A DNA stretch of 64,000 bases, taken from the NCBI GenBank assembly GCA_013297745.1, contig JAAFIM010000002.1:93711-157710 (forward strand), given 5' to 3'. The position numbers and the translations under genes are program-made. Shown piece after piece: positions 1,671 to 27,823 of this stretch (its first letter is position 1; every line of letters starts with the position of its first letter). The stretch is from Chitinophagales bacterium. GTDB taxonomy: Bacteria; Bacteroidota; Bacteroidia; Chitinophagales; Saprospiraceae. The notes under the pieces were generated by a model that searched no databases, had not been told where the DNA came from, and saw only the letters and a list, made by a program, of their open reading frames with translations.

Positions 1671-2228
1671 ATGTCATTTATATTATACGCCAAAACTTTA
1701 CACTTTATCGCGCTAATCAGTTGGATGGCGGCTATTTTTTACCTGCCCCGTTTATTTATTTATCACCGCGAAGCTTTGGAGCAAGACGAACCCACCAAAA
1801 GTATTTTATCCACATATTTGGCTGATTATCAACGCCGTTTGTATAAAATAATTATGAATCCAGCGATGATGGTTACTTTTGTGGCTGGCTTTGCGATGAT
1901 TTTTGGCTATGGTTGGGAATGGTTTGCGGCTAATCATTGGCTACACGCCAAGTTGGTTTTGTTGGCTGGTTTGGTTTATTTTCATCTCCAATGCAAACAG
2001 ATTATGCAGCGATTGGCTACAGGCGAAAAAGTTGGGACTTCAACCCGCTTGCGCTTATTTAATGAAATCCCAACCCTGTTGATGATAGCTATAGTGCTGC
2101 TGGCTGTGTTCAAGAACGGCTTAAATGCAGTTTTGGCTATGTTGGGTTTAATCACAGTGGGCGGATTATTATTTTTGGGGGTTCGTTTTTATAAAAAACT
2201 GCGCGCCAAAGAGTCCAAAATACTATAA
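1671..2228 (+). CDS. hemJ: Protoporphyrinogen oxidase HemJ-like membrane protein
   Basis: This 185-residue protein of the HemJ (UPF0093) family oxidises protoporphyrinogen IX in haem synthesis. The sequence shows four to five hydrophobic segments, the N-terminal family pattern KTLHFIALISWMAAIFYLPRLF with the conserved His near residue 11, the RRLYKIIMNPAM segment, WLHAKLVLL with a second conserved His, and the C-terminal FNEIPTLLMIAIVLL motif. Length and motif order match the family. It sits tightly between a hydrolase and a glycosyltransferase-like gene, 19 bases before the latter. Confidence 0.9.
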   Translation: MSFILYAKTLHFIALISWMAAIFYLPRLFIYHREALEQDEPTKSILSTYLADYQRRLYKIIMNPAMMVTFVAGFAMIFGYGWEWFAANHWLHAKLVLLAGLVYFHLQCKQIMQRLATGEKVGTSTRLRLFNEIPTLLMIAIVLLAVFKNGLNAVLAMLGLITVGGLLFLGVRFYKKLRAKESKIL

Positions 2229-6337: not shown

Positions 6338-8059
6338 ATGAAAATTACTTTAATTATTTCTCTTTTTATTTTATTATTCCATTCTTACCCACAAGCGCAA
6401 ACTACTAATAATAAGGTAGTTATAAACTTATGGAACGATGTGGGCAGGCTAAACCCAATCACTTCCACCTCAGCAGATGCAAGTTATGTGGAAAGCAATG
6501 TATTCAGCAGTTTATTGGCATATAATCCCAAAAACTATCAACTTCAGACCGATTTGGCAGCCGCTATGCCTATAATCAATACTATAGACACGGGCGAGTA
6601 CAAAGGGGGAATGTCGCTAACTTTCCAAATCAACAAGAACGCGGTTTGGGATAATGGACAACCGATTACAGCCCACGATTTTATATTTACGGTCAAAGCG
6701 ATAAAAAATCCACGTATAGAATCAGGCAATAATCGCCCCTATTATACGTTTATTGATGATATAAAAATCAATAAAGACAACGAACAAAAATTTACTATTT
6801 ATAGCAAAGAACGATATTTTTTGGCAGAAAACAGCGCAGGCACGTTGCAAATTATGCCCGAATACATTTACGACAGCAGCCGAATTATGCGCAAATTCAG
6901 CATAGGCGACTTGGACACCATCCCACAAATGAAAAGCCACAATCAAATTATCAAGTTTGCAGAACAATTCAATAAGTTGGAATTTAGCAACTTTACGTTA
7001 ATTGGTTCAGGAGCGTACCGTTTTGAGAGTTGGAAATTTCAAGACAAAATTATTTTAATCCGCAAAAAAAATTATTGGAAAGATGCGGTTGACAATCCCA
7101 ACAACAAAGCCAAGTATCCAGATACGATAATTTATAAAATTGCCCAAAGTTTTGAAAGTTTGTTGAACTCGGTCAAAAATATCGAAATTGATGCCATAAC
7201 TGGTATGCAACCCCAAACTTTTGATAAATGGAAAAAAGATGCTACGATAAAAGCTAATTTTAATTTTTATACCCCCGAACAATTTGCTTATGATTATATT
7301 GGTATCAACACCAAAAAAGCGGGACTAAACGAGAAAAAAGTTAGACAAGCCTTAGCGCATCTTATTGATAAACAATATCTTATCAATACTATTTATAAAG
7401 GTTATGCCAAAACAACCAACAGCCCCATAAATCCTGTAAAATCGCATTATCACAAAGGGCTAAAAGAGCGCGAATTTAGCCTCAAAAAAGCAAAATCCCT
7501 ACTCGCAGAAGCGGGTTGGGCAGATACAGATAAAAATGGAATTTTGGACAAAACAATCAATGGGGCAAAAATTGAGCTAAAATTCAACCTTAAATACCTC
7601 AAAAATAACCAATTGCGGCAAGAAATAGCCCAACATTTCCAAACCAACGCTCAAAAAGTGGGTATAGTTTTGGAATTAAACGGCGAAGAAAGGGGTATTT
7701 TGATGGAAAATCTCAATAACCGAAGATATGATTTGAATGTAGGGGCTTGGATACAAACGCCAGATTTAGAAGATATGACCCAAATTTGGCACAGCAGCAG
7801 CGATAATCCACAAGGCAGCAACCGCACAGGATTCGGCAGCCCAGCCAGCGACAAAATTATAGATGCCATCCGTATTTGTGTGGATAAAAAACAACGCGAT
7901 ATTTTATATAAGGAAATTCAAGAAATGATTGCTGACGAACAACCTTATATTTTCTTGTGTGTGCCAAAAGAGCGGTTGATTATTCACAAAAAATTCTATC
8001 ATACCCAAGTTACCGCCCATCGCCCCAATTTTATAGCGAGCGAGTTTCAAACCAAATAA
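6338..8059 (+). CDS. ABC transporter substrate-binding protein, family 5 (oligopeptide type)
   Basis: This 573-residue exported protein has a signal peptide of about 20 residues ending HSYPQAQ. It has the SBP_bac_5 fold seen in OppA/DppA-type peptide receptors: LNPITSTSADASYVESNVFSSLL near the N-terminus, then NAVWDNGQPITAHDFIFTVKAI near 90-110. The C-terminal lobe contains VRQALAHLIDKQYLI. No permease or ATPase gene is adjacent, so it must work with components encoded elsewhere or act alone. The broken partial copy immediately upstream points to an old duplication. Confidence 0.88.
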   Translation: MKITLIISLFILLFHSYPQAQTTNNKVVINLWNDVGRLNPITSTSADASYVESNVFSSLLAYNPKNYQLQTDLAAAMPIINTIDTGEYKGGMSLTFQINKNAVWDNGQPITAHDFIFTVKAIKNPRIESGNNRPYYTFIDDIKINKDNEQKFTIYSKERYFLAENSAGTLQIMPEYIYDSSRIMRKFSIGDLDTIPQMKSHNQIIKFAEQFNKLEFSNFTLIGSGAYRFESWKFQDKIILIRKKNYWKDAVDNPNNKAKYPDTIIYKIAQSFESLLNSVKNIEIDAITGMQPQTFDKWKKDATIKANFNFYTPEQFAYDYIGINTKKAGLNEKKVRQALAHLIDKQYLINTIYKGYAKTTNSPINPVKSHYHKGLKEREFSLKKAKSLLAEAGWADTDKNGILDKTINGAKIELKFNLKYLKNNQLRQEIAQHFQTNAQKVGIVLELNGEERGILMENLNNRRYDLNVGAWIQTPDLEDMTQIWHSSSDNPQGSNRTGFGSPASDKIIDAIRICVDKKQRDILYKEIQEMIADEQPYIFLCVPKERLIIHKKFYHTQVTAHRPNFIASEFQTK

Positions 8060-10085: not shown

Positions 10086-10227
10086 AAGAAAGACTGACGG
10101 GATTTTCACCCGCAACCCCGCGCCCCCAAGGCGCGTACAATGGATAGTGCTGAAATTATTTATACAAACAATTATAGGACTGCCAACTTACGCGAGCAAT
10201 CCTACTGATTTTGCAACAGTCTTTCTT
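10086..10227 (-). ncRNA. tRNA-like RNA 1, long-stem, interrupted
   Basis: This is the last member of the array. Its ends form an 11-bp perfect stem (AAGAAAGACTG with CAGTCTTTCTT), longer than a tRNA acceptor. Inside are a D-arm-like hairpin GCAA/TTGC, an anticodon-stem pair CGCGT/ACGCG, a long class-II-like variable arm, and a T-arm-like hairpin GCGGG/CCCGT with loop TGAAAAT that lacks the usual C56. The stretch between the stem halves holds a degenerate insert core (TTGTTTGTATAAATAA, then CAGCACTA). No anticodon with a preceding U is readable. It may be a decayed tRNA or a tRNA mimic; its ends resemble those of the RNA at 13407-13545. Confidence 0.5.
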
Positions 10228-10228
10228 G

Positions 10229-10334
10229 TGAGTGGGGCTGGGTTCGAACCAACGACAGATATGAACTGTGTTGCTGTGGTTTCTTTTACAAAAAACGCTT
10301 GTTTTTATTGCTCTACCAACTGAGCTACCCACTC
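10229..10334 (-). tRNA. Interrupted tRNA, CAT anticodon likely (Met or Ile2)
   Basis: The acceptor GAGTGGG/CCCACTC, D-arm GCTC-AGTTGGTA-GAGC, T-arm GTTGG-TTCGAAC-CCAGC and A73 are all standard. Between position 26 and the anticodon lies the shared insert core. After it, ACAG-TTCATAT-CTGT forms a hairpin with CAT in the right loop place, including U33 and A37. That reading leaves almost no variable loop, while pairing ATA of the 5' side with TAT gives a normal variable loop but no sensible anticodon. Identity is therefore uncertain. CCA is not encoded. Confidence 0.65.
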
Positions 10335-10363
10335 CATAAAAATAAAAAAAATCTCATCAAAGG

Positions 10364-10477
10364 CGGAAACGGCTGGACTCGAACCAGCGACCCACTGCGT
10401 GACAGGCAAAAATAGTGCTGTGGTTTTTTTTACAAAAAACGCTTATTAGTTGTTCTAACCAACTGAACTACGTTTCC
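10364..10477 (-). tRNA. Interrupted tRNA-Asp (GTC)
   Basis: The acceptor GGAAACG/CGTTTCC, G73, D-arm GTTC-AGTTGGTTA-GAAC and T-arm GCTGG-TTCGAGT-CCAGC are canonical. The 5' strand of the anticodon stem reads ACT and then breaks into a 40-base insert; the sequence resumes with GC, loop CTGTCAC and 3' strand GCAGT. Joining ACT to GC gives a perfect five-pair stem with GTC, U33 and a normal GGGTC variable loop. This places the interruption after position 29 (or 28, since a T is shared). It is one of the two clearest intron-like cases here. Confidence 0.85.
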
Positions 10478-10487
10478 AAAAATAAGG

Positions 10488-10604
10488 CACAAGTGGTTGG
10501 ATTCGCACCAACGTCCAGCGGGTTAAATACTCTAATGGTGCTGTGGTTTTTTCTACAAAAAACGCTTGCGATGTCCGCTGCTCTAACTGCTGAGCTACAC
10601 TTGT
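10488..10604 (-). tRNA. Interrupted tRNA, TTT anticodon likely (Lys)
   Basis: The acceptor is ACAAGTG/CACTTGT with G73. The D-loop AGCAGTTA lacks the usual GG and the T-loop is TGCGAAT. The anticodon stem 5' side begins GCGG; after the insert core the sequence ends GTATTTAA then CCCGC. Joining GCGG to G gives a perfect GCGGG/CCCGC stem with loop TATTTAA and anticodon TTT, but position 33 would be A. G73 is unusual for Lys. Either the boundary or the identity may be wrong. Confidence 0.6.
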
Positions 10605-10622
10605 GGATAAAAATAAAAAGAG

Positions 10623-10732
10623 CACAGGCGGTTGGATTTGCACCAACGACACATAGATTAACCATAATAGTGCTGTGGTTTCTTTTACAAAAAACACTTT
10701 TCCTATTGCTCTACTAACTGAGCTACGCCTGT
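10623..10732 (-). tRNA. Interrupted tRNA, GTT anticodon likely (Asn)
   Basis: The acceptor is ACAGGCG/CGCCTGT with G73, as expected for Asn. D-loop AGTTAGTA has A18-G19, and the T-loop is TGCAAAT with G55. ATAG (5' side) plus A after the insert pairs perfectly with TCTAT, giving the loop TGGTTAA with GTT at 34-36 and A37. Position 33 would be G rather than U, so the exact boundary is open. The variable loop GTGTC is normal. The core here has AGTG and CACT flanking the T6/A-rich hairpin. Confidence 0.65.
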
Positions 10733-10744
10733 ATAATAAAATCG

Positions 10745-10860
10745 TCGGGATGGTTGGATTTGAACCAACGACCTGCGTTCCCCTGATATTCTAGTGCTGC
10801 GGTTTTTTTTACAAAAAACACTTATTATAACGCTACGCTACCAGACTGCGCCACATCCCG
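10745..10860 (-). tRNA. Interrupted tRNA-Pro
   Basis: The acceptor CGGGATG/CATCCCG with C1-G72 and A73 is the bacterial Pro identity set. The D-arm is GCGC-AGTCTGGTA-GCGT and the T-loop TTCAAAT. The 5' anticodon strand GCGTT pairs fully with AACGC. If the 5' part runs to ATs U33 and the 3' part resumes at AGGGG, the loop is ATAGGGG with AGG at 34-36; reading GGG instead costs one base. The core of this copy differs by CCGCAGC in place of CCACAGC. Confidence 0.7.
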
Positions 10861-10876
10861 AAAATAAAAAAAATAG

Positions 10877-10987
10877 CGGGGATAGTCGGACTTGCACCGA
10901 CACCTTTTGTTTTCAAGGCAAAGATTTATAGTGCTGTGGTTTCTTTTACAAAAAACACATCGGTATGCTACTTTACACCATATCCCC
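10877..10987 (-). tRNA. Interrupted tRNA, identity unresolved (Gln-like arms)
   Basis: The acceptor GGGGATA/TATCCCC with G73 and the D-arm GTGT-AAAGTA-GCAT resemble Gln or Trp tRNAs. The T-arm is GTCGG-TGCAAGT-CCGAC with G55, and the D-loop has A18-G19. After position 26 only CCGAT precedes the insert core. The 3' part, CTTTGCCTTGAAAACAAAAG, could carry TTG (Gln), GAA (Phe) or GCC, and none gives a normal stem and variable loop. The outer architecture is clearly tRNA; the anticodon is not readable. Confidence 0.55.
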
Positions 10988-11019
10988 AAAGGTAACTTTA
11001 CTGATAATTAAGTAAAAGG

Positions 11020-11133
11020 GTGGAGTGGTTGGATTCGCACCAACGACCTACGGAACCACAATCAAGTTTGCTGCTGTGGTTTTTTATACAAAAAACACTT
11101 TACGTTACTCTACTAAACTGAGCTACACTCCAC
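11020..11133 (-). tRNA. Interrupted tRNA-His (GTG)
   Basis: Identity is firm. The acceptor TGGAGTG/CACTCCA carries the extra G at -1 opposite C73, unique to tRNA-His, and the loop TTGTGGT gives GTG with U33 and G37. The 5' anticodon strand is ACG, then a 39-base insert with the core; the sequence resumes with GA, and ACG plus GA pairs perfectly with TCCGT. The break is exactly between positions 29 and 30, the same place as in tRNA-Asp. The elbow is the variant kind: D-loop A18-G19 and T-loop TGCGAAT. Confidence 0.88.
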
Positions 11134-11146
11134 AGATAAAACATAG

Positions 11147-11258
11147 TAAAGGGGGACGGATTCGCACCGCCGTCTGCTGCCTGGAAGTATTCTAGTGCTG
11201 TGGTTTTTTTTACAAAAAACGCTTATTTTCAGCCGTGCTGCTACTGCACCACCCCTTC
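11147..11258 (-). tRNA. Interrupted tRNA-Gly (TCC)
   Basis: The acceptor GAAGGGG/CCCCTTT has a G1-U72 wobble and A73. The D-arm is GTGC-AGTAGCA-GCAC with A18-G19, and the T-arm GGCGG-TGCGAAT-CCGTC has G55. GCTG on the 5' side pairs with CAGC on the 3' side; the loop CTTCCAG has TCC, U33 and A37. Pair 31-39 would be A-G with either boundary, a small defect. The four-base variable loop AGAC is short but seen in other tRNAs. Confidence 0.7.
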
Positions 11259-11298
11259 ATATAATAAAATTTAATACTTTTGTACATAAAATGCAAAG

Positions 11299-11589
11299 TT
11301 ATAAAACTTCAATAACCTTGCCATAAACTTGTTTTGTCCAGCCGTTGATGCCGCCTTTATTATTGCCGATTAGACAACCTTTTTGCTCATCTTTGGCTTT
11401 TACCAAATGGGTAAAATAATTACCTTTTACCTTGCAATAAACCGCGTCGCCTATCAATACAGACTCCCAAGTAGCGGGCTCGAGCAGATGATTTTGCCCC
11501 GACTTAATGAGCGGATTCATAGAATTGCCTTTTTCTCTGGTAATGAACGTTTCGCCATTTTGTAGCTTTTCCAGCTTGTAATTTCTCAT
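11299..11589 (-). CDS. Small S24/S26 peptidase-like protein inside the tRNA array
   Basis: This 96-residue protein lies between tRNA-Gly and tRNA-Leu and is read in the same direction. It contains GNSMNPLIKSGQ (residues ~21-32), which matches the GxSMxPxIxxG serine motif of LexA/UmuD-type S24 and signal-peptidase S26 folds. DAVYCKVKGNYFTHLVKA follows, where these families usually have a catalytic Lys; here His or Thr stands in the expected place, so activity is doubtful. There is no DNA-binding domain and no signal peptide. Free-standing short S24-like proteins are common in phages and Bacteroidota; the function is unknown. Confidence 0.6.
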   Translation of the reverse strand: MRNYKLEKLQNGETFITREKGNSMNPLIKSGQNHLLEPATWESVLIGDAVYCKVKGNYFTHLVKAKDEQKGCLIGNNKGGINGWTKQVYGKVIEVL

Positions 11590-11621
11590 CTTATACTAAT
11601 TTTAAACGGTAAATAATGTCG

Positions 11622-11750
11622 TGGAGATGGTTGGATTCGAACCAACACGCACCCGAAGATGCAACGAGTTTTAAATGACGAAAATGCTGCGATTTTTTAT
11701 ACAAAAAATACTGTGTGCGCTCGTCGCGTATACCTTTTCGCCACATCTCC
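11622..11750 (-). tRNA. Interrupted tRNA-Leu (TAA)
   Basis: This is a class II tRNA with acceptor GGAGATG/CATCTCC, A73, D-arm GCG-AAAAGGTATA-CGC, variable arm GCATC-TTCG-GGTGC and T-loop TTCGAAT. The full 5' anticodon strand ACGAG precedes the insert and pairs with CTCGT. The loop TTTAAAA, with TAA at 34-36 and U33, lies after the insert. The break is therefore at about 31/32, a little further 3' than in Asp and His. The core is diverged (CAGTATTTTTTGTATAAAAAATCGCAGCA without its first bases). Confidence 0.85.
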
Positions 11751-11792
11751 TAATTTATACTTATTTGTAAATTTCCTCTAATCATTATTTGG

Positions 11793-11980
11793 TGGAAATG
11801 GTTGGACTCGAACCAACATACTCTATCATAGACTCAAACCATAAGCCTAAGAGTGGCAGATATTTAGTGTAATTTTTGTTAGAATAATCAAAGTTACAAT
11901 AAATGCTGAGGTCTTTTAATACACAAAAAACACAGTTTTTGGTTTGATTCTGCTGCGTTTGCCCTTTTCGCCACATCTCC
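11793..11980 (-). tRNA. Interrupted tRNA-Leu, CAA anticodon likely, enlarged inserts
   Basis: The acceptor GGAGATG/CATTTCC, A73 and the Leu-type D-arm match the neighbouring Leu gene. Here the 5' part reads GCAGA then ATCAAAC, so U33, CAA and A37 come before the insert, and GCAGA pairs with TCTGC after it. The break would be near 37/38, unlike its neighbours. The insert is about 90 bases, with a diverged core. The variable arm is also unusual: ACTCT/AGAGT encloses a further hairpin TAGGCT/AGTCTA. Reading the anticodon after the insert instead gives AAA, which is not a Leu anticodon. Confidence 0.7.
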
Positions 11981-12025
11981 TAATTATACTTATTTGTAAA
12001 TTTTTTGTCTCTTAATTCTATTTTG

Positions 12026-12152
12026 TGGGGGCAGTTGGATTCGAACCAACAAGCTCTAAAGAGCGACAATCTTACTGACGACAGTTGCTGTGGTTTTTTG
12101 TACAAAAAACGCTTATGTGCTTTGCTGCGTATGCCATTTCCGCCTCACCCCC
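12026..12152 (-). tRNA. Interrupted class II tRNA (Leu-like; GTA also possible)
   Basis: This is the first gene of the array. The acceptor is GGGGGTG/TGCCCCC with two wobble pairs and A73. The D-arm GCG-GAAATGGCATA-CGC is Leu-like, the variable arm is GCTC-TTTA-GAGC and the T-loop TTCGAAT. GCAA on the 5' side plus T after the insert pairs with ATTGT, leaving the loop CAGTAAG: GTA (Tyr) at 34-36 but A at position 33. A Leu anticodon is not found in register. The core holds the perfect palindrome GTTTTTTGTACAAAAAAC. Confidence 0.6.
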
Positions 12153-12188
12153 TTATTTTTTTATAATAATTTTCTACTTTTCAATCTT

Positions 12189-13394
12189 ATGTTCAATCAA
12201 AACTTGGTAATAAACGGAAAAAAATTAATCTTTATAGAACGGAAAGCTGATTTTATAACGGCTATGCAAGAATTAGCCAAAAGTAAAAGTTTCGCTATCG
12301 ACACCGAATTTGACCGCAATCGCAGCCGTTATGGGTTTAATGTGTGCGTGATACAAATTGCTACCGAAAAAAACTGTTATATCATAGACCCATTGGCTGT
12401 AGCTCAAGGCGAGCGGATGAACACAGCGTTGAAACCACTTTGGGAGTTGATAGAATCGGATAAACATTTGAAAATTATTCACGCTTTGGGCGAAGATATA
12501 CGCCTTTTTGCTAAATATAATTGCGTAGCGCGTTGTTTTTTTGATACCAAAATTGCCGCCGAAACCCTTTGTATAAAAGGCGGAGATTCGTTCAAAACAT
12601 TACTTAAGGCTATTTTGGATAAAGAAGTGGATAAATCTTTACAAAAAACGAACTGGTTTGAACGCCCTTTGACTTGGGAACACTTGCTTTATCTGGCTAA
12701 CGATGTGGTTTATTTGCAACAAATCAAAGACGAGTTGGAAAAACAGTTGAAAACTGCCCAACGCGAGCATTGGTTTGCCGAAGAGATGGAATTTGCGCTA
12801 CAATTGGAAGCGCACATCAACCACGATGCAGAAATCCAAAGCCTCAAAAATAAACAAGAGTATAGAATGTTTAGCGAATTTCAACAGTTTATGTTTGAAA
12901 AACTATGGCATTTGCGCGACCAAACCGCTCAAAAAGCGGATAAGCCACCTTTTTACATTTTTGGCAATGAACAATTATTCAAAATAGCAGAAAACGCGAC
13001 TGATTTTATCCAAAACCCCATTTTTAAGGGATTTTATAAAACTTTTCAAGAGGAAGAAAAGCAACAAGTATTTTTAACCCAATTACAAAATTGGCTCACA
13101 GAAGCCCAAACGCTTAATTTAGCTACTGTTTGGCAAAAGCCCAAATTTGACCCCAATAAACCCTTTGTGGATAGAACAAAAGCTAAAGAAATTGCCTTGC
13201 GAACATTCAATCCTATAAAAGATTTTTTGCGGGAAAAATACGGCGAAGATACAGAGAAAAGATTATTGAGCAATCGCAAGATTGAAATAATAGGCATAGA
13301 ACAAAATTTAAACCTTTTGCCCCAATATATCGTCGCAGAGATAAAAGCCGCAGCTCAGGCTACCAATACAGATATTAGCAAATATCTAAAATAA
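12189..13394 (+). CDS. rnd: Ribonuclease D
   Basis: This 401-residue 3'-5' exoribonuclease trims tRNA precursors and other structured RNAs. It has the DEDDy exonuclease domain: FAIDTEFDR gives Asp38 and Glu40, ALGEDIRLF holds the second Asp, and YLANDVVYL has the final Tyr and Asp. An HRDC domain follows at about residues 230-300. The frame is open further upstream, but that stretch overlaps the first tRNA-like gene, so the ATG at 12189 beginning MFNQNLVING is chosen. It is divergent from the interrupted tRNA array, with only 36 bases between them, which is suggestive given its known substrates. Confidence 0.9.
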   Translation: MFNQNLVINGKKLIFIERKADFITAMQELAKSKSFAIDTEFDRNRSRYGFNVCVIQIATEKNCYIIDPLAVAQGERMNTALKPLWELIESDKHLKIIHALGEDIRLFAKYNCVARCFFDTKIAAETLCIKGGDSFKTLLKAILDKEVDKSLQKTNWFERPLTWEHLLYLANDVVYLQQIKDELEKQLKTAQREHWFAEEMEFALQLEAHINHDAEIQSLKNKQEYRMFSEFQQFMFEKLWHLRDQTAQKADKPPFYIFGNEQLFKIAENATDFIQNPIFKGFYKTFQEEEKQQVFLTQLQNWLTEAQTLNLATVWQKPKFDPNKPFVDRTKAKEIALRTFNPIKDFLREKYGEDTEKRLLSNRKIEIIGIEQNLNLLPQYIVAEIKAAAQATNTDISKYLK

Positions 13395-13406: not shown

Positions 13407-13545
13407 GAAAAAGACGCAAAGATTTTACAAAAAAAAGCGCTGGTGCTACAATATGATGATTATGCGGATGCATCAAATGCTGTAAGTCTTTTTTACAAAA
13501 AATGGTCAGAACGGTTGCTTTTAATTGGTCTTCAACGTCTTTTTC
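13407..13545 (-). ncRNA. Structured RNA downstream of the Ro60-like gene
   Basis: The ends form a stem of at least 10 perfect pairs (GAAAAAGACG with CGTCTTTTTC, extendable to 13 of 14). Within it are a GTTG/CAAC hairpin near the 5' end, a TGATG/CATCA hairpin in the middle, and two copies related to the tRNA insert core: TTTTTTGTAAAAAAGACTTA then CAGCA, and GCGCTTTTTTTTGTAAAATC. It begins 27 bases after the Ro60-like stop on the same strand, so read-through transcription is likely. Position and long closing stem suggest a Y-RNA-like partner. There is no TTCGA T-loop as in YrlA, and no reading frame of note. Confidence 0.6.
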
Positions 13546-13572: not shown

Positions 13573-15186
13573 TTAGAGCTTGATTTGTTGCAAAACGTCT
13601 TGGTTCAACGCTTTGAGCATATTTTCGGCTGGGTTGAGTTGGCGAACTTCGCCCGTAACTTTATCAATCGTAGTGGTTTCACCGCCCACAATCAAAGAAA
13701 TTACGCTACCGTCAAAACCACCAATCATAGTTACGCCCGCATCGTCAATTTGGGAGGGGAAATCTTTGCCACGACCAGATACATACCACCAAATAACTTT
13801 CATTTCACCCAAACCCACTTTCTGCAATTTTGACATCGCTTCTTCGTAGTTGGTTTTGGCGTTGCCGCTAGCAGGGTTGAACTGCATATCGCTCACTACC
13901 AGCAAAGTAGTAGGAAAGTCTTTAACAGGCACATCAGGGCGAGTGGTGCGAATGCGCACAATTTCATCGATTACGGATTGGAAATTGGTACTACCCCAAC
14001 CACCGCAAGCAGCAGCTTGTTGGCACATATCCGTAAAACCACCTGACAATTGGATAACACGACTTTCGTTGCTGAACGCAATAACGTTTTTGTGGAAAGT
14101 GCCTTCGTTCAGGGTGGAAAAATATACCCCCAAAGAGATACAAATATCGTAAGGAGTTGTACCTTTGCTGTCCACTTTTTCCCAAGTCATAGAACCCGAA
14201 GTGTCCAAAGCAGACCAAACATTCTCGCGGATGCCGCCAGTACCTTTTTTGGCCAATTCAATCAAACCATCAAACTGTTTGTTCAAGGTGTTGCGTTGTG
14301 CCAAAGATAATTTTGAACTTCCGTAGCTGTTGTTTGGGTAAATCGCTTTAAACAATTCGTACACATAACCCGTAAATTTCGCTACAGGTTGAGTATCCAA
14401 CCAAGCCAAGTAACGTTTTTCTAAGTTGTGGCGTTCCAAAACCGTTTTGCCGTCTTTGCCTTTGCTGTTCACAATTTGGAAAAGGGCTTTACCAGCAATG
14501 CGCGCAAAATCCAATTTATCCCACAGACCGTCTTGCATAAAACGTTGAAAAGCGTGCGCTTGTCCGTTGGCTTTAAACTGGCGGTATTGTTTGGCGTTCC
14601 AGCCCAAAAATTGGCACAAACCGTAAGCAAACTCATTCATAAGTTTGTGGCGGTCGTTATAGACTTGTTTCGCGCTGCGGATTTTGGGCAAAAACTTAGC
14701 GATAAGGTCGCGGTTGTATTCGTTGGCTATGCCCATTTGTACCAATTCGTACAGTTTGGTTTTATCCAATATAGGCAATAAATCTTCGTGCCACAAATCT
14801 TTCCAACAACCCACCACGGGGATTAACCACATATTTTTGTAAAAAGTCTCTGGCTGGTATTTGGCAACCCAAGAGATAGCTTTTCTAAATTCATCGCGCG
14901 CACCCTGTCCGCGTTGTACGTTATCGGTTTCAAACAAACCTTTAATGCTGCGGGTAATAGTGCGGTTGTAAAATAAAATCTGCAAAGCCACAAGGGGGGA
15001 CTCGCCCCATATTTTGCCCATATCGGTGTACACTTCTTCCAACTTGCGGTCGCGGTAAGTAGCAGATTTAGCAAAATAATCCAACAAGCCTGCACCTGTT
15101 GTTCCGTGCGACAAAGCCCCATTTTCGGTGTAAACATTGTATTGCATAACCGCTTGCAGGAATGGATTTTTAGTTTGTTTTGTCAT
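13573..15186 (-). CDS. Ro60/TROVE-like protein (DUF2828 with vWA domain)
   Basis: This 537-residue protein has a helical-repeat N-terminal region of the DUF2828 type (YTENGALSHGTTGAGLLDYFA near 19-39, RGQGARDEFRKAISW near 92-106, VVGCWKDLWH near 124-133). A C-terminal von Willebrand A domain has an intact MIDAS, DTSGSM at 328-333. The layout is that of the RNA chaperone Ro60 (TROVE plus vWA), which binds Y RNAs and misfolded small RNAs. The ATG at 15186 (MTKQTKNPF) is preferred; the open frame upstream to 15273 looks like leader. A structured RNA follows directly. RNA binding is inferred from fold and context. Confidence 0.75.
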   Translation of the reverse strand: MTKQTKNPFLQAVMQYNVYTENGALSHGTTGAGLLDYFAKSATYRDRKLEEVYTDMGKIWGESPLVALQILFYNRTITRSIKGLFETDNVQRGQGARDEFRKAISWVAKYQPETFYKNMWLIPVVGCWKDLWHEDLLPILDKTKLYELVQMGIANEYNRDLIAKFLPKIRSAKQVYNDRHKLMNEFAYGLCQFLGWNAKQYRQFKANGQAHAFQRFMQDGLWDKLDFARIAGKALFQIVNSKGKDGKTVLERHNLEKRYLAWLDTQPVAKFTGYVYELFKAIYPNNSYGSSKLSLAQRNTLNKQFDGLIELAKKGTGGIRENVWSALDTSGSMTWEKVDSKGTTPYDICISLGVYFSTLNEGTFHKNVIAFSNESRVIQLSGGFTDMCQQAAACGGWGSTNFQSVIDEIVRIRTTRPDVPVKDFPTTLLVVSDMQFNPASGNAKTNYEEAMSKLQKVGLGEMKVIWWYVSGRGKDFPSQIDDAGVTMIGGFDGSVISLIVGGETTTIDKVTGEVRQLNPAENMLKALNQDVLQQIKL

Positions 15187-15244
15187 TTTAGATAAAAAAC
15201 GATAAAGTGAAAAAATGGTTTTGAATTTATTCTGCTTTGTTATT

Positions 15245-15300
15245 CGTGGTTTAGTTGTGCAGAACGAGGGCATTAACTACCCTACCGCGCTTAAAGTTCC
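15245..15300 (-). promoter_or_regulatory. Possible structured leader of the Ro60-like gene
   Basis: About 60-115 bases upstream of the chosen start, the minus strand reads GCGCGGTAGGGTAGTTAA followed by TGCCCTCGTTCTGCAC. It can form GGG/CCC and GC-rich pairings and is far richer in GC than its surroundings. It may be a leader structure or a decayed small RNA. No known riboswitch motif is recognised. Confidence 0.3.
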
Positions 15301-27647: not shown

Positions 27648-27823
27648 TGGATAGGGCTGGGCTTGAACCAGCTAATTTTAGTTTCAGATTATACACCCGC
27701 ACAGCTATCGCGGTATGTGTGTATAGCTTAGGACCGTTATAGTTACGTTAGAATTGCTGTTATTTTTTATACAAAAAATATCGCTGTTGCCTCTTTTCTA
27801 AATTTTACCCGACGTTCCTATCC
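27648..27823 (-). ncRNA. Interrupted tRNA-like RNA carrying a 23S rRNA helix 69 segment
   Basis: The ends form a 7-bp acceptor-like stem (GGATAGG/CCTATCC, then A) and a canonical T-arm (GCTGG-TTCAAGC-CCAGC). The D side is not normal. The insert core (TATTTTTTGTATAAAAAATA then CAGCA) is at 27755-27783. At 27727-27747 the minus strand contains 21 bases identical to the conserved 23S sequence around helix 69 (core TAACTATAACGGTCC), and at 27805-27813 a nine-base match to neighbouring helix 71 (GTCGGGTAA). A strong hairpin, TATACAC/GTGTATA with CCGC/GCGG, follows. No anticodon is readable. It lies between atpE and a T9SS cargo gene. Confidence 0.6.

Follow-up and report, generated by a model that had tools for sequence, protein, structure and literature searches.

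A tandem array of tRNA-like genes carrying a capped, putatively Y-RNA-like hairpin module near a predicted Ro60-like gene in a Chitinophagales bacterium

A stretch of 64,000 nucleotides (nt) from contig JAAFIM010000002.1 (positions 93,711 to 157,710) of the Chitinophagales bacterium assembly GCA_013297745.1, referred to below as the window, contains twelve tRNA-like genes (t1 to t12) placed in tandem on the minus strand (10090-12152 of the window), each with a common hairpin core in or beside its anticodon arm. A DUF2828 gene, the product of which is predicted to fold like Ro60, is situated 1.4 kb from t12. We consider it likely that the array specifies tRNA-shaped RNAs, probably unspliced, that would serve as Y-RNA-type ligands of this predicted Ro60-like protein, the hairpin being a permuted form of a stem-plus-CAGCA module. 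This interpretation is built on the stem of seven base pairs (bp) with its CAGCA flank, the occurrence of such modules in clusters behind DUF2828 genes, the Ro60 fold predicted for the protein and the intact acceptor and T stems of the array genes. As the insert matches modules that stand beside Ro60-like genes, the array products are likely to be partner RNAs of that protein, and not tRNAs with introns.

Hairpin core and tRNA bodies of the array

The 28-nt core occurs twelve times between 10148 and 12113, always on the minus strand and within a tRNA-like gene. Its stem has seven base pairs in all twelve hairpins and is followed in each by two bases and CAGCA; the loop consists of four bases, GUAN, in 11 of them and of seven bases in t11. 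In the alignment of the twelve cores nine pairs were scored and 93.5% of their cells were paired, compared with 50.9-72.2% in six slid versions, and three of the nine pairs had changed on both sides, which was reached by 13 of 500 shuffles. G-U pairs are tolerated in the stem, and there is no support for a firm pair between the Y and R bases that flank it, these being unpaired in six of twelve copies.

A covariance model of the core, built from the twelve copies, identified a thirteenth (E=2.7e-4) within another tRNA-like gene, t13 (27649-27823, minus strand; module 27747-27788), beside an atpE-like open reading frame (ORF; named by eye). The acceptor and T arms of t13 were read directly and are independent of the model. 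It should be added that t13 contains the 20-base string GTAACTATAACGGTCCTAAG (27727-27746, minus strand), which we take to be a strongly conserved piece of 23S ribosomal RNA (rRNA), from the helix 69 region. An Rfam scan of 301 bases around this string did not confirm the assignment, with no rRNA match up to E 5.

Acceptor stems are paired at seven of seven positions and T stems at five of five in all twelve array genes, with G-U counted. An earlier note on this DNA had described twelve tRNA-like genes with a common-core insert, which is borne out and extended by t13, and its wording "family of insert-bearing tRNAs" describes them correctly. Its statement that the arms pair normally holds for the acceptor and T stems and fails for t1, where the D arm is abnormal as read by eye.

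Apart from this D region, t1 (10090-10223; module 10148-10175) has a Pro(TGG)-like anticodon arm. It is followed by t2 (10230-10334; module 10272-10299), which is of ambiguous type and scores 45.9 bits with the Rfam tRNA model, by the tRNA-Asp(GTC)-like t3 (10365-10477; module 10416-10443; 48.8 bits) and by t4 (10489-10604; module 10539-10566; 46.7 bits), of Lys or Met type. The gene t5 (10624-10732; module 10671-10698; 46.0 bits) is tRNA-Asn(GTT)-like by eye and t6 (10746-10860; module 10795-10822) tRNA-Pro-like, while t7 (10878-10987; module 10932-10959) has a Gln-like D region and an unclear anticodon stem, both by eye. Further along the array lie t8 (11021-11132; module 11072-11099), resembling tRNA-His(GTG), t9 (11148-11258; module 11196-11223), resembling tRNA-Gly(TCC) by eye, and t10 (11623-11750; module 11685-11712; 41.8 bits in a genome search), resembling tRNA-Leu(TAA). 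The array ends with Leu-like t11 (11794-11980; module 11904-11934; 33.4 bits), in which the variable arm is enlarged besides the insert (by eye), and Leu-like t12 (12027-12152; module 12086-12113), whose stem is a perfect inverted repeat.

None of the twelve genes was detected by ARAGORN. The Rfam tRNA model found three of them in a scan of the whole window and five above the gathering score in a scan of short stretches; across the assembly it gave 57 matches, five in the array (genome search). Promoter-like sites showed no excess over shuffles. Between t9 and t10 the array also holds a 96-amino-acid ORF (11299-11589, minus strand) that lacks a Pfam match and resembles signal peptidase I weakly (22 bits, where the cut-off is 51.85).

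Modules beside Ro60-like genes in relatives

The Ro60-like gene (13573-15273, minus strand) encodes 566 amino acids with DUF2828 and DUF7788 (vWA). By prediction only, its product has the Ro60 fold, a helical ring with a vWA domain; it gave no match to the Pfam TROVE sequence model. Its closest DUF2828 counterparts, the proteins P0001 and P0002, are 90% and 85% identical. DUF7788 is rare, being present in six of 395 genomes of the class, nine of 396 of the order and five of 375 of the phylum (E<=0.001, this genome included each time).

Reading of the DNA behind DUF7788 genes first revealed short repeats in which CAGCA follows a 7-base strand and the complement of that strand comes later. A scan keyed to an exact 7-bp stem, two bases and CAGCA was then applied to 13 Ro60-type loci, where 18 modules were found at 246 CAGCA sites lying no more than 3 kb from the gene, compared with five at 390 sites farther away (p=1e-4). 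The module at locus L096 was dropped: the gene there is TROVE, and the module does not show the consensus. The remaining 17 lie within 3 kb of the gene in five of the eight DUF2828 loci over the Pfam cut-off; L107 has a lone module 2.8 kb from its gene.

As the CAGCA key had been derived from the window, three checks were made. Repeat finding without any key recovered four copies of AAAGATTACCRCAGCAAC behind the L110 gene, and in L111 a repeat related to it. With a weight matrix of the 17 free modules (16 distinct rows), the 13 window modules took ranks 1-13 among 450 window hairpins; once CAGCA was removed from the matrix they ranked 1-8, 12, 19, 21, 66 and 107 of 450 (p=4e-9). Finally, a protein search found the Ro60-like gene in 12 of 361 genomes of the family, which provided eight new loci. 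In each of them a module follows the matched coding region at a distance of 18-56 nt, and 16 modules, all on the gene strand, were counted at 117 near CAGCA sites against one at 124 far sites. One of the 16, at 7459 in L169, lacks the consensus and may be a chance match.

The open form has the order RGANNNC, NNCAGCA, body, complement, G in 17 of 17 modules of the first set, with 23-70 nt of body between the stem strands. An RGANNNC strand before NNCAGCA fits 17/17 and 15/16 modules of the two open sets (by eye). The window strands read AA[AG]AAAC or variants, not RGANNNC. They are joined via GUAN, which likewise starts with G, and their CAGCA points outward into the tRNA; with the strands meeting in this manner, the window insert corresponds to the open module joined the opposite way, that is, circularly permuted. 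Moreover, a T arm with TTCGAAT was seen by eye in five of the 33 open modules, so that tRNA mimicry is present in the free forms also. Taken together, the link between the insert and Ro60-like genes is strong.

The window itself has a tentative open-form candidate, read by hand, just behind the Ro60-like gene (13408-13491, minus strand), with the stem AAAAAGAC/GTCTTTTT, TTA and CAGCA. It overlaps a weak model match (13470-13512, E=0.3) and was not recovered by the strict module scan.

Proposed function and alternative explanations

In the working that we propose, the array genes would be transcribed and, the tRNA ends being open, their transcripts would have the ends trimmed by ordinary tRNA-end enzymes. 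The Ro60-like ring would bind the capped stem and its CAGCA flank. The tRNA body, in twelve versions, may then mimic a tRNA and either gate the ring or attach an RNA enzyme to it, in the manner of the bacterial Y RNAs already known. An extension of this proposal, which we regard as doubtful, is that a Ro60-type ring displays a panel of tRNA mimics of differing identity, each with a capped Y module; such baits could sense, absorb or help repair tRNA damage, with a separate tRNA-cutting or tRNA-handling enzyme tested by each body.

A passage of PMC8394870 describes the end stem of bacterial Y RNA as holding Rsr, and the tRNA-like part as binding PNPase and being modified by tRNA enzymes. YrlA (RF02553), as presented there, has in common with the window a tRNA-like body, a stem holding a Ro60-type protein and a nearby gene for it. 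The two differ in that the YrlA stem is formed from the 5' and 3' ends, whereas the window stem is internal and capped in 12/12 genes. Furthermore, the tRNA parts of YrlA are permuted in the Rfam alignment (T arm, then D arm), while the window tRNAs have the normal order, open ends and a different motif. The array RNAs would accordingly be Y-RNA-like in their proposed working, lacking the defining open-ended stem and falling below the YrlA model. In vertebrates, Ro60 is bound at a helix of seven base pairs that has bulges alongside (PMC4726728); the window module likewise has 7 bp with conserved unpaired bases adjacent, a likeness of form, and vertebrate Y RNAs are not located within tRNA bodies.

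Judged from the sequences, the window appears to hold a new form of a Y-RNA-like module, capped, with an internal stem and borne by an unpermuted tRNA, the known form being YrlA-type Y RNAs with an end stem. The proposal connects DUF2828/DUF7788, a family of unknown function, with the Ro60 fold and with a small-RNA module that has its own signature. As the capped, unpermuted form parts the Ro-binding stem from the RNA ends, unlike known Y RNAs, the roles of stem and tRNA body could be tested separately. The question of why Y RNAs resemble tRNAs also becomes testable, since in this genome both appear to be one molecule. Titles and abstract openings retrieved on DUF2828, DUF7788, Ro60-like or TROVE-like proteins and Y RNA arrays contained no description of the family as Ro60-like or of such RNAs.

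As to the origin of the array, the module probably stood free, as it does in relatives, before it was capped and fused with a tRNA array. Ordinary tRNA arrays are located just upstream of the DUF2828 gene in L170 (four tRNAs) and L171 (five; both by ARAGORN), which makes such a fusion plausible, though the window tRNAs are nearer to the host's own: all twelve score closer to host tRNAs (n=45) than to 21 tRNAs of L093, L170 and L171, the host set being the larger. Copying of the array from the tRNA arrays of these three loci is unsupported for that reason.

The capped form was also sought elsewhere. Near-exact pattern scans gave no match in viral contigs and two in genome contigs, both inside apparent coding sequence and rejected; among 60 relatives the pattern matched this genome only. 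The covariance-model search for the core that the earlier note had advised was run with model R1 (capped module) on 392 genomes of the order and returned weak matches only, in 13 other genomes (one each in 12, two in one; E 7e-5 to 0.009). ARAGORN predicted no tRNA at 20 R1-match loci; since it is equally blind to all twelve window genes, a T-arm plus acceptor scan, recovering 11 of the 13 window genes, was run on 30 loci instead. It gave one candidate, L138, about 200 nt from the R1 match and without the module, and the centres of 22 R1 loci showed no tRNA arms by eye. As tRNA arms and module were not found together, the R1 matches in other genomes are taken as chance. The L138 candidate (1753-1922, plus strand) is itself a Leu-like tRNA with a long, module-free insert in another genome of the order, with no Rfam match up to E 1.

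Several results weigh against our proposal. No second genome with a capped, tRNA-borne form was found in the R1 search of the order together with the eight new DUF2828 loci, and a scan of these eight for both forms yielded no capped module. In three of the 16 DUF2828 loci (L093, L106 and L109) no module lies nearer than 3 kb to the gene. AAG precedes the stem in 8/12 window modules, 7/17 of the first open set and 3/16 of the second (the last by eye), and is only a partial signature. The best score of the Rfam YrlA model in the array was 24.9 bits, where 69 is the gathering score. An RNase D-like gene on the opposite strand (12171-13394, plus; exonuclease and HRDC) separates the Ro60-like gene from the array. 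Lastly, a clean spliced anticodon arm can be obtained for five of 11 genes, at cut positions differing between genes.

This last result bears on one of the two readings offered in the earlier note, an undescribed class of small tRNA introns. On that reading the inserts would be removed after transcription and the halves joined by RtcB or a different ligase. With exon pieces cut by hand, every cut position, up to 13 per gene, was tried in all genes except t1 and t13 (11 genes), an arm being called clean when it had five pairs, U33, a purine at 37 and an anticodon fitting the likely type of the gene. Clean arms resulted from cuts at 27/28 to 29/30 in t3, 29/30 in t8, 31/32 or 32/33 in t10, 33/34 or 34/35 in t6 and 37/38 or 38/39 in t11; none was obtained at any position in the other six (t2, t4, t5, t7, t9 and t12), t9 being close, with U33 and four or more pairs. 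Some clean fits are expected by chance when as many as 13 positions are tried per gene. The part of t3 after the insert is 94% identical over 34 nt to the host tRNA-Asp, and RtcB ligase is present in the assembly, both of which would suit splicing. The archaeal-type splicing endonuclease (tRNA_int_endo, PF01974) is absent from the assembly, which may encode an endonuclease of another kind, and no group I intron family occurs among the Rfam matches of the window and short-stretch scans. Group I and archaeal-type tRNA introns resemble the window inserts in being placed in the anticodon arm (parts of PMC3984707 and PMC4090602), and differ in that here one 28-nt core is common to twelve genes. The variable cut positions, the six genes without a clean arm, the missing tRNA_int_endo and the modules standing free of tRNAs beside Ro60-like genes all argue against introns. 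So do the intact isoacceptors: elsewhere the genome contains ordinary genes for tRNA-Asp, -His, -Asn, -Lys, -Pro, -Leu(TAA) and -Gly(TCC), the check proposed earlier having succeeded for the types that were readable. The intron proposal fares poorly on these data, and we hold it to be improbable.

Insert-bearing tRNA decoys that absorb tRNA-cutting toxins, with the Ro60-like protein uninvolved, would account for retained tRNA bodies with drifted anticodon loops, and the tRNA-like part of YrlA has been suggested as a possible anticodon nuclease inhibitor (a passage of PMC7790460). This view leaves unexplained why the hairpin is the best-kept part and why matching modules stand beside Ro60-like genes, which renders it very improbable.

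Decay of the array into pseudogenes with copies of a dying repeat would agree with the abnormal anticodon loops, the broken D arm of t1 and the replacement of U55 in six of twelve genes, compared with TTC[AG]A retained in 44 of 45 host tRNAs. Among t2-t12, G55 occurs together with A-G in the D loop in 5/5 genes and U55 with G-G in 6/6 (positions by eye, t1 left out), and this co-change at the elbow supports a kept fold; it speaks against decay together with the complete acceptor and T stems and the compensating changes in the hairpin, so that this explanation appears highly improbable. The genes with G55 in the T loop and A-G rather than G-G in the D loop are t4, t5, t7, t8 and t9. The same G55/A-G co-change is seen by eye in three of the 12 tRNAs around the DUF2828 gene of phage-like L093 (tRNA-Val 6763, -Phe 6605 and -Ser 6268).

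A DNA element, such as a protein or recombination site incidentally located in tRNA genes, is scarcely credible: the core comes close to a perfect inverted repeat and is one in t12, but CAGCA stands on one side only, G-U pairs are tolerated and the stem strands of relatives (first set) lie 23-70 nt apart.

Neighbouring genes and other loci

Relatives of the RNase D gene were found by tblastn in none of 13 other Ro60-type loci, and its adjacency to the array is therefore treated as coincidence. No viral contig was matched by the Ro60-like protein search. ARAGORN located 12 tRNAs around the DUF2828 gene of L093 and one tRNA 2.8 kb from that of L094, and none at the other 12 DUF2828 loci; an insert-bearing tRNA with CAGCA was absent from all 16. 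According to PMC7824862, a TROVE RNA-binding protein that is said to act with a tRNA-like partner can be present in jumbo phages. The L093 gene among its 12 tRNAs recalls this arrangement, and such phage tRNAs differ from those of the window in having no insert. A structured-looking intergenic stretch was noted upstream of the tRNA array in L171 (60-260, plus strand).

The TROVE-kind loci L095 and L096 match Pfam TROVE and differ from the DUF2828 loci. YrlA matches under the gathering score occur in L095, L112 and L113 (E 1e-5 to 5e-5), and L094 and L095 also carry RtcB and WYL genes. In L095 (5877-11255, minus strand) a TROVE gene is accompanied by several RNAs with a common GTTACTTCG and permuted tRNA parts, one of them weakly YrlA, and then by RtcB; a tRNA-like sequence with a long insert lies at about 7428-7618. 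The genome that provided the window has a second array, L064 (G000:C1:54270-55322), with 11 ordinary-looking tRNAs, and an RtcB match is placed 38 kb from it on the same contig.

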